From: Lepus europaeus
Taxonomy: Eukaryota > Chordata > Mammalia > Lagomorpha > Leporidae
NCBI RefSeq assembly: GCF_033115175.1
Contig: NC_084831.1
Coordinates: forward strand, 10,450,540-10,514,539
Reading direction: 5' to 3'
DNA length: 64,000 nucleotides
Below the pieces are notes generated by a model. It was not told the origin of the DNA. It saw only the letters and a list, made by a program, of their open reading frames with translations, and did no database searches. Shown piece after piece: positions 15,501 to 18,500 of the stretch; position 1 is the stretch's first letter; each line of letters opens with the position of its first letter. The translations under genes were made by a program, and so were the position numbers.

Positions 15501-18500
15501 TCAGCCTGGTGCAGCCCTGCCTATTGTGGCCATCTGAGGAGCTATCCAGCAGATGGAAGACTCTCTCTCTCTCCAGTGTGGCACAAAGGCATCTTAACCA
15601 CCAGGCTGACCGCCAGCCCCGGGAGCCATTTCTTGGATCCCAGGTGCTGTGTCGGCAAGGTCAGGTGTTTGTCCAGCATCTAAACCTAATTTGGTTTAAG
15701 GAGATTTGACGTGGGGTTCATGGTGCTCCAGGCCCCTGACTTGGCACAGTGATTTTCCCATGCACCCGACGGGCGCTGCCAATGGCCAGCAGCTGGCGAG
15801 GGCTCAGCGAGCACACACAAGGCAGCCAGAAGCGATGCCCACCCCCAGCTTCCAGCGTGGGGGAGTTTGGCCACACTTTCAGAGGGCCTGGGTTCTGCTG
15901 CATGGCAATGAGCTTGCTTTAACAAAAGGAGGGGAATTTTTTTTTTTTTTTTGCAACCTTCAGTCATTCATTCATTCAACAAACACTCATTCGGAGCCAT
16001 TCTGCCAGGTATCACACCAGGTGTAAGGGACAGTGAGTGACATGGCGCTGGGCACCTAGACCAGGGCTTCTCCACTTCCTCCTGGCGCAGGTGGGGAAGG
16101 GTGTGGTCTTAGGTCATGGGGCATCCTTGCCCACCTCCCACTGGAAGCCACCAGCTAGCACTCGCCATCCTCAGTTGTCACCACCAGAAACGTGTCCAGA
16201 CGCTGCCTGGTGTCCTGGGGGCAGCGATCACAGAATGAGAGAAGCGAGGGGCCATTAGGGAGGAAGACCATTACATGCAAGCAGGCAGGATGGCCAGCAA
16301 CCGAGAGGGCAGTCGGCTCCCCCCCCTCCCGAGTCACTCCTGCGTGGTCACACGCTGCTGTAGCCACTGGGGACAGGAGTTCATAATGGCACGCCAAGAG
16401 AGCCTGTTTGTTTCTGTTTGATTTCAGTCTCACAATGACCTTTCCAACTCAGGGTCCAGCGTAGCCATGGAGAAGTCGGGGAAAGCAGATGTGGCCGAGG
16501 CGCTGGATCTCAGCGAGAAGCTGGTGCGTCCCGACGGCCTCCCCTGGTGCCCCGGGGCCGGCGTGAGCCCCAGGGTGGCGTCACCAACAACCACAAACTC
16601 TATTTAGTTCCAATCGCTCCTGCAGACCCATCTAGCATCCCAGCATGGGTCGGAGCCTGCACGGTCGTGTTCCTTGAGAAAGTGGCAATTAGAATGAGTG
16701 TTTATATCTGTTGTCACTTCTCCTGTGGTTCCCAAAAAAAAGGCCCTGCCTAAATGGATGTGGGAGAAAGGAGACCTGTATTTAAAACCCCGCTTGCTCT
16801 CCTTGTTTGCTCTCCGCAATCCCAGACAATGAATGAAAACAGAAGAGACGTTCGCTTCCCTGGAGCAGCCGCCAGCGTGCTGGGGCAATGCCTCTTACCT
16901 GCGACACTTCCCTTGTAGTACCTGGATATGAGCAAGACCCTGGGGAGCCTGATGAACATTAAGGACATGTCAGGTCACGTGTCCATGAAGCACCTGTCCG
17001 CTACCGAGAGAGATAAAATCCACCAGCTCCGACAGAGGGACCTCGATCTGGTGTTTGATAAAATCGCTCAGCTGAAGAGCCGGCTGGAGAGAAAAGAGGA
17101 GCTTCTAAGAGGATACGAAAAAGACATCGATCAGCTCAGGTACTGCCCACGTCCCCGGCGAAGGGCCCTGTCCTCCCTTCTCCGGGCTGAACCCAGACAG
17201 CAGCAGGAGGGTCCATGGGGCGGGAGGACAGAGGTCTGAGTGTTACTAACAATACTGGGGTAGGGCGCTGGGGACAACACGTGGGCCTGATGGAGCAAGT
17301 CCACCCTTGAGAAGGCAGCGGTCAGAGTGTGCGCTCCTAAGGGGCACGATGCACCTGTTACGGGCCTTGATGTGTGGTTTGCCATTGTGTGTATCTTGAT
17401 AATGCCACCGTAATCTCAGTCATCACGATTCCCCTCCTTGGGATCGTGGGATTGGAAGCCTGCTAGTACTTTCTTGACTGCCCCCCACCCCAGGCTACAC
17501 ACACAATGGGGTCTTCAAAAAGTTCATGGAAAAGTCGTATTATGGAAAAACTGTACGTGGGCTTCACCGTTGTCCTGCACCAAAACAAACTCATCTTTCC
17601 ATTCCCTCTCCCTGTGAACTCTTGGAAGTCCCCTGGCATTCAGCTGGCGGGCTGTTTGTTCAACACTCACCTCCCCAGATGTCTGTCATTCTGTCCTGCT
17701 GTCCCGGGACTCCTGGGTCAGCCCTGTAGGTCTGGGGCATTGGTGAGGAGTGGGAGAAGGACTGTGTGTCCCCTCTGCACCCAGGCAGAGCAAAGTGTCC
17801 GTGCAGATGTACCAGTCACATGTGGCGAAGCTGGAGGATGACGTCTACAGAGAGGCGGAGGAAAAGGCGCTGCTGAAGGAGGCGCTGGAGCGCACGGAGC
17901 AGCAGCTGCACCAGGAGAAGAGGATCAACAGGGCCATGAGGCGGCAGGAGGTGAGGCAGCTCCACCTGGGGCGGCAGGAGGTGAGGCATCAGGAGGTGAG
18001 GTGGCTCCACCTGGGGCAGCAGGAGGTGAGGCAGCAGGAGGTGAGGCGGCTCCGCCTGGGGAAGCAGGAGGTGAGGCGGCTCCGCCTGGGTGGCGGCTCC
18101 CAAGCTGCCCTGCAGCTCCCTCGGCAACGGCAAAGGGGCGTCCCAGGAGGGTCGGGCAGCACACGATGCACTCACGGTGCAGAGGTGGGGAGCACAGCGG
18201 GCTTAGCAGCAGACAGACCCGATGTGGAGCCGAGCTCTCCCGCTTCCTGTGTGACCTTACACAGACTTCTTAACTCCTTTGAGACTTGTGACTCACATCT
18301 GTATTCCCAAGGGGTGACTGTCCATGCTTCCACCGTTCTGCCAGGTGCTGGGGACATGTAGAGGAATATGCTCTCTGGGAGTCAGAACATAGTAGACACT
18401 CAATATTCAGTGACTGGACAGGTGGACGGGCGATGTTTGGATGGATGTGCAAAGAGGTTGATGGATGGATGGGGGGGTGGACAGACACAAGGATGGATGG

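Follow-up and report, generated by a model that had tools for sequence, protein, structure and literature searches.

A 31-bp VNTR in the human CBS gene was reportedly first described by Lievers in 2001. The repeat is designated c.1444_1467+7(16_21), and copy numbers of 16, 17, 18, 19 and 21 are tabulated in the available part of PMC2630376. This designation divides the unit into 24 exonic and 7 intronic bases, and each copy holds a donor, as in the array that is described here in the FHAD1 gene of Lepus europaeus. Because the CBS VNTR has the same arrangement, a tandem repeat that spans a splice donor is an already known kind of element, and the FHAD1 array is of this kind in that its unit contains both the end of an exon and the donor. 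The CBS unit, with the 31 bp given by its name, is not a multiple of 3, whereas the six candidate donors of FHAD1 are spaced by 15 or 30 bp and are all in frame; it is this shared frame that distinguishes the FHAD1 array from that of CBS. We know of no demonstration that several copies of the CBS VNTR serve as donors.

Another CBS variant, c.844_845ins68, resembles FHAD1 in that a junction is duplicated and two splice sites compete, one of which is strongly preferred, and differs from it in being a single 68-bp duplication at the intron 7/exon 8 junction rather than an array (PMC2630376, available part). In fission yeast, 24-bp repeats are likewise tandem segments that hold AGGT, but there new introns lie between the copies, whereas the FHAD1 array is without a credible acceptor (PMC4974935, available part).

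In the open-licence literature, as represented by titles and the beginnings of abstracts, CBS was the only case found of a minisatellite that spans a splice donor, and a search for multiple donors in repeats gave, at the same partial depth, only work on C9orf72. The preliminary description of this locus had known of no described case in FHAD1. None was present among the matches listed here for FHAD1. The kind as such is known from human CBS. The core of the GC-rich, Jeffreys-type minisatellites, GGGCAGGANG, appears similar to CGGCAGGAGG of the FHAD1 unit, and to our knowledge few minisatellites of that type are found at exon junctions.

Identification of the gene and its terminal coding exons

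The window, that is the whole stretch of 64,000 nucleotides that was analysed, has one match in its own genome (2.93 Gb), at C6:10450540-10514539. Of four strings typical of rabbit repeats, three matched nowhere and one matched three times, and the rabbit origin assumed in the preliminary description was not confirmed. The peptide applied as probe and alignment partner is presumed to be that of human FHAD1. Its tail matched the window at 16919-17140 (E 6e-35), at 17783-17953 (82% over 57 residues, E 2e-25) and at 29294-29398 (tblastn, E 6e-9 to 3e-10). These three exon matches are followed by three pieces that match a presumed stretch of EFHD2 within 52505-54657 (E 5e-29, 6e-23 and 5e-21), all of them on the + strand. 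FHAD1 followed by EFHD2 is presumably also the gene order on human chromosome 1p36. By exon similarity and gene order, the gene that carries the array is FHAD1 with EFHD2 downstream, in agreement with the name it had been given before.

The penultimate coding exon is placed at 17785-17950 on the + strand by similarity to the presumed human protein and by an acceptor AG at 17783-17784. It is preceded by ..ctctgcacccag and comprises 166 bases, which read as 55 residues, up to 17950; its first base finishes a split codon, and its end coincides with a codon boundary (..INRAMRRQE). The last coding exon was located at 29297-29404 on the + strand by tblastn with the presumed human tail and by its sequence, which reads ..cattgaag|GTCGGAGCC at the start. 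It is entered in phase 0 after the ..CATTGAAG acceptor and encodes 35 residues, followed by TAG at 29402-29404. With the last coding exon in this position, the intron that begins with the array is the last one between coding exons, ~11.3 kb in length.

A pattern search of the own genome, allowing up to 2 mismatches, gave 0 spliced retrocopies with the junction between this exon and the last exon. A search of solved structures with the penultimate-exon peptide yielded 0 matches, and no Pfam family reached a curated cut-off with any of four exon peptides. FHAD1 has been knocked out in the mouse in a study on sperm motility, and the string 'splic' is absent from the main text of that paper as far as it is available (PMC10984166).

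A minisatellite spans the probable donor of the penultimate exon

A minisatellite whose units of 15 and 30 bp combine into a higher-order period of 45 bp occupies 17937-18090 on the + strand. Tandem Repeats Finder reports it in three rows, 17937-18047 with period 15, 17940-18090 with period 30, and 17937-18077 with period 45 (3.1 copies, 90% matches). The start at 17937 lies within the last 14 exonic bases of the penultimate exon. Thus, the array begins inside the exon and its unit holds CAGGAG|GTGAGG, in line with the earlier statement that the donor of this exon is itself the repeat unit of a minisatellite. These 12 bases, from -6 to +6, are invariant in 6/6 copies. A splice junction could be assigned to one site only by more than 11 exonic bases at four of the six donors, and by more than 6 or 8 at the remaining two.

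The 9-mer GAG|GTGAGG is present at all six donors, with a spacing of 30/15/30/15/30. Donor 1, GTGAGG at 17951-17956, is the putative ancestral site and adds no residues. The candidate donors 2 to 6 share the identical 9-mer in frame and would add 10 residues (17981-17986), 15 residues (17996-18001), 25 residues (18026-18031), 30 residues (18041-18046) and, at the intron-proximal site, 40 residues (18071-18076). The six donors span 121 bases of the 154-base array, and the positions originally proposed for them are exact, with every spacing a multiple of 15. If no donor were used, the first stop in frame would be TAG at 18359-18361 on the + strand, and retention past 17950 would add 136 residues up to that stop.

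In the window, the + strand has 8 occurrences of GAGGTGAGG, 6 of them inside the array, and the - strand has 0. The 14-mer GGCAGGAGGTGAGG, with at most 1 mismatch, occurs five times in the window against 0.20 expected, and 0/100 shuffles reached five; all five coincide with donors of the array, and the one donor left over, 17996, has 2 mismatches. In the own genome, at least 3 places hold the exact pair CAGGAGGTGAGG-NNN-CAGGAGGTGAGG, the array accounting for 2 of them, and the reversed control gave 0, the repeat counts in this pattern search being lower bounds. At least one other genomic place of the paired donor motif is among the matches listed, at C1:179153860-179153886.

Tandem repeats are prone to mis-assembly, and the array could in principle be an artefact of this sort. 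Nothing specific was found that pointed to one. Against it stand the differences among the copies, the shortness of the array, the single match of the window in its own genome and the absence of any N in the window, and we regard an artefact as highly improbable. The donor-spanning array is real and uncommon; any function of it would be hypothetical.

The six candidate donors score equally

Each of the six donors has a matrix score of 9.71 and a U1 duplex energy of -10.2 kcal/mol. For seven further FHAD1 donor candidates of the window the values range from 4.36 to 11.3 and from -4.8 to -11.9 kcal/mol, where neither the two splice-site matrices nor the U1 end come from a database. One of these seven outscores the array donors, and the comparison donor at 17140 scores 4.53. 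By this comparison the array donors are strong sites. Among all GT sites in the window, 19/3477 on the + strand score at least as high as the array donors, 6 of these 19 being in the array, and 10/3158 on the - strand do so. Because the six sites are of equal strength and so close together, local strength cannot choose between them.

Joining 17950 to 29297 gives RRQE|VGARK, which aligns with the presumed human RQQK|VGTRK without insertion. Since this join matches the presumed human protein in this way, it strongly supports 17951 as a putative true donor of a coding exon, and this site is in all likelihood the ancestral one.

Reading frame and divergence of the copies

The frame of the exon is open from 17747 to 18358. 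All six donors are in phase 0, as is the acceptor at 29297, and splicing from any of the six would therefore keep the frame. The increments of 0, 10, 15, 25, 30 and 40 residues put forward in the preliminary description are correct, and the 35-residue tail is unchanged by each of them. The accompanying claim of a frame open through all donors is true as far as the TAG at 18359, but it has little evidential weight. The frames of the array are open in 2/3 cases on the + strand and in 2/3 on the - strand. Dinucleotide shuffles of the array retained an open frame in 1006/2000 cases (50%), and arrays built by repeating a shuffled 45-bp unit in register did so in 1663/2000 cases (83%). As shuffled sequences are so often open, openness of the array is by itself no evidence, and the open frame was ruled out as an argument for coding.

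The divergence of the copies was assessed relative to an inferred CpG-bearing unit. Five units show 10 differences from it, of which 8 are CpG transitions, a count that is partly circular because the reference unit was chosen by us. The exon-end copy, which is outside the five-unit count, has 1 difference that is not at a CpG, and the partial last copy has none over its first 20 bases. The donor core is without CpG, and its 12 constant columns adjoin variable ones. As the core lacks such sites and most differences between copies fall on them, selection is not required to explain why the donors are identical. The use of donor identity as evidence for selection is weakened by this accounting (8/10). 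In the three full 30-bp units, 3/3 variable codons alter the residue, and these changes give no sign of protein constraint.

These results also bear on the idea that the array is a functional and selected C-terminal segment of variable length, a tunable spacer in front of the tail. In its favour, every increment is in frame and leaves the tail unchanged. Yet an open frame is often expected by default, each variable codon in the repeat alters the residue, and the Gly-containing units would not, in our judgement, obviously continue a coiled coil. A selected spacer is therefore very unlikely.

Proposed origin of the array and possible use of its donors

The hexamer TGAGGC lies in the exon at 17937 and, at a distance of 15 bases, again at 17952 on the other side of the junction. 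We propose that a GC-rich minisatellite arose at the junction of the penultimate exon and its intron through local duplication, with this direct repeat at 17937 and 17952 as the likely seed. Slippage between the two TGAGGC copies could have generated the first 15-bp copy bearing a donor, and 45-bp blocks copied later would have led to the 30/15 rhythm. The pair may be the seed or else a product of the repeat, as the sequence alone fits both. Because the unit has CAGGAG|GTGAGG and the spacings are multiples of 15, the duplications would have added five donors downstream of the ancestral one, all of them matching it in phase and in local strength.

The spliceosome could presumably use several of these donors. 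When equal 5' splice sites compete, the first or the intron-proximal site is generally expected to dominate, and here 17951 and/or 18071 would be expected to do so, with some mixture. A search of the open-licence literature gave no paper on competition between identical splice sites. The resulting proteins would be mixed in length, with 0 to 40 additional residues immediately ahead of the constant tail of 35 residues. Since every choice of donor preserves the frame and the tail, the array would most likely have persisted by tolerance rather than by selection for a function. We consider it rather likely overall that local duplication gave rise to in-phase and equal donors, that several of them are usable, as candidates, and that they were kept by tolerance. 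The stronger proposal, that the equal donors are used side by side and yield up to six C-terminal lengths which shift with the copy number of the individual, is tentative and in our estimate unlikely.

The units hold AGGT, and introns that arise by tandem duplication of AGGT have been described (PMC4974935, available part), which raises the question whether mini-introns lie between copies inside the array. Such introns would need a usable acceptor in a downstream copy. The best acceptor within the array scores -3.6, whereas nine acceptors of candidate FHAD1 exons within the window, three of them backed by similarity, score 1.9 to 7.2 with the same acceptor matrix. No usable acceptor was thus found, and mini-introns within the array were rejected as extremely improbable.

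Folding of the array RNA was considered as well. In a local folding model the six donors are mostly paired, with unpaired probabilities of 0.002 to 0.05 at three settings. Accessibility is locally unequal, and 17981 is the most open donor at 3/3 settings, ~5- to 20-fold more so than 17996, these being model values that were not compared with shuffles. The donor at 17981 opens a 15-bp unit and is more open, as predicted by the idea that a hairpin formed by AGGTG/CACCT pairing in the 30-bp units hides alternate donors. For 18026, the other donor that opens a 15-bp unit, there is no clear excess of openness over the remaining donors. The fold of the whole array is not above that of shuffles (z 0.15), with 113/200 shuffles as stable or more stable, and the hairpin was accordingly set aside.

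A second donor-spanning array at a predicted FHAD1 exon

A further coiled-coil exon of FHAD1 is predicted at 6777-6936 on the + strand from a coiled-coil scan and from its phase fit with a predicted exon at 8351; its match to the FHAD1 probe is weak (E 0.022). A second donor-spanning minisatellite was recognised at 6917-7307 on the + strand by Tandem Repeats Finder and by its sequence. CAG|GTGCGT together with ~20 preceding exonic bases is found at 6937 and again at 7027 and 7157, in steps of 90 and 130 bases beyond 6937. In the frame of the predicted exon a TGA at 6977 precedes 7027, so that use of the extra donors there would give a premature stop. If the predicted exon is right, FHAD1 holds one in-frame and one out-of-frame donor array.

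A real exon at 6777-6936 would also mean that FHAD1 already has duplicated donors that are necessarily ignored or wasted. One alternative is that only the ancestral 17951 is used, with exon definition and upstream exonic enhancers deciding and the other five sites being inert intronic repeats. The position of the extra donors of 6917-7307, which are of equal strength and sit beyond an in-frame stop, is in favour of such a restriction, as is the fact that 17951 yields the conserved protein and the 166-base exon. On the other hand, all positions from -6 to +6 are shared by the six sites, and local sequence hence offers no basis for choosing 17951. Exclusive use of 17951 is possible, if somewhat doubtful, and we continue to prefer in-phase donors of which several are usable.

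The window has ~8 to 10 FHAD1 donor candidates, and two of them are in arrays. For at least two to be so placed, the probability is 0.10 to 0.15 with 22 merged array rows and 0.011 to 0.017 with 8, the latter being the arrays judged to be non-simple, which were chosen post hoc. Since this choice was post hoc and the probability depends on it, no conclusion is drawn on an enrichment of donors in arrays.

Other tandem repeats were noted in the window. Between predicted FHAD1 exons there are a 1.5-kb TG-rich array with 18 to 38-bp periods (1767-3272) and six 43-bp copies with 96% matches (9527-9782), the latter likely a young minisatellite. A GATG-type array at 18467-18640 is located in the same last coding intron, ~400 bases past the donor array. 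Downstream of EFHD2, ~18 copies of the 20-bp unit GGACAGAACGTTCTAGAGTG are found at 59903-60264; the consensus of this repeat contains the palindrome AGAACGTTCT, resembling a heat-shock element, which has the form GAAnnTTC.

Implications

Six in-frame donors that are identical over 12 bases and face one acceptor provide a natural setting in which the effect of position on the choice of splice site can be studied cleanly, and if several of them are indeed used, it could be tested there how the spliceosome selects one of several identical 5' splice sites that lie side by side. The array at 6917-7307 offers a built-in contrast, as use of the extra donors there should be harmful or cause decay. 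If the copy number of the array at the penultimate exon varies, changes in splicing would go hand in hand with changes in protein length. Should its donors be used side by side, the array would be a heritable length dial for a protein of the sperm or cilium.
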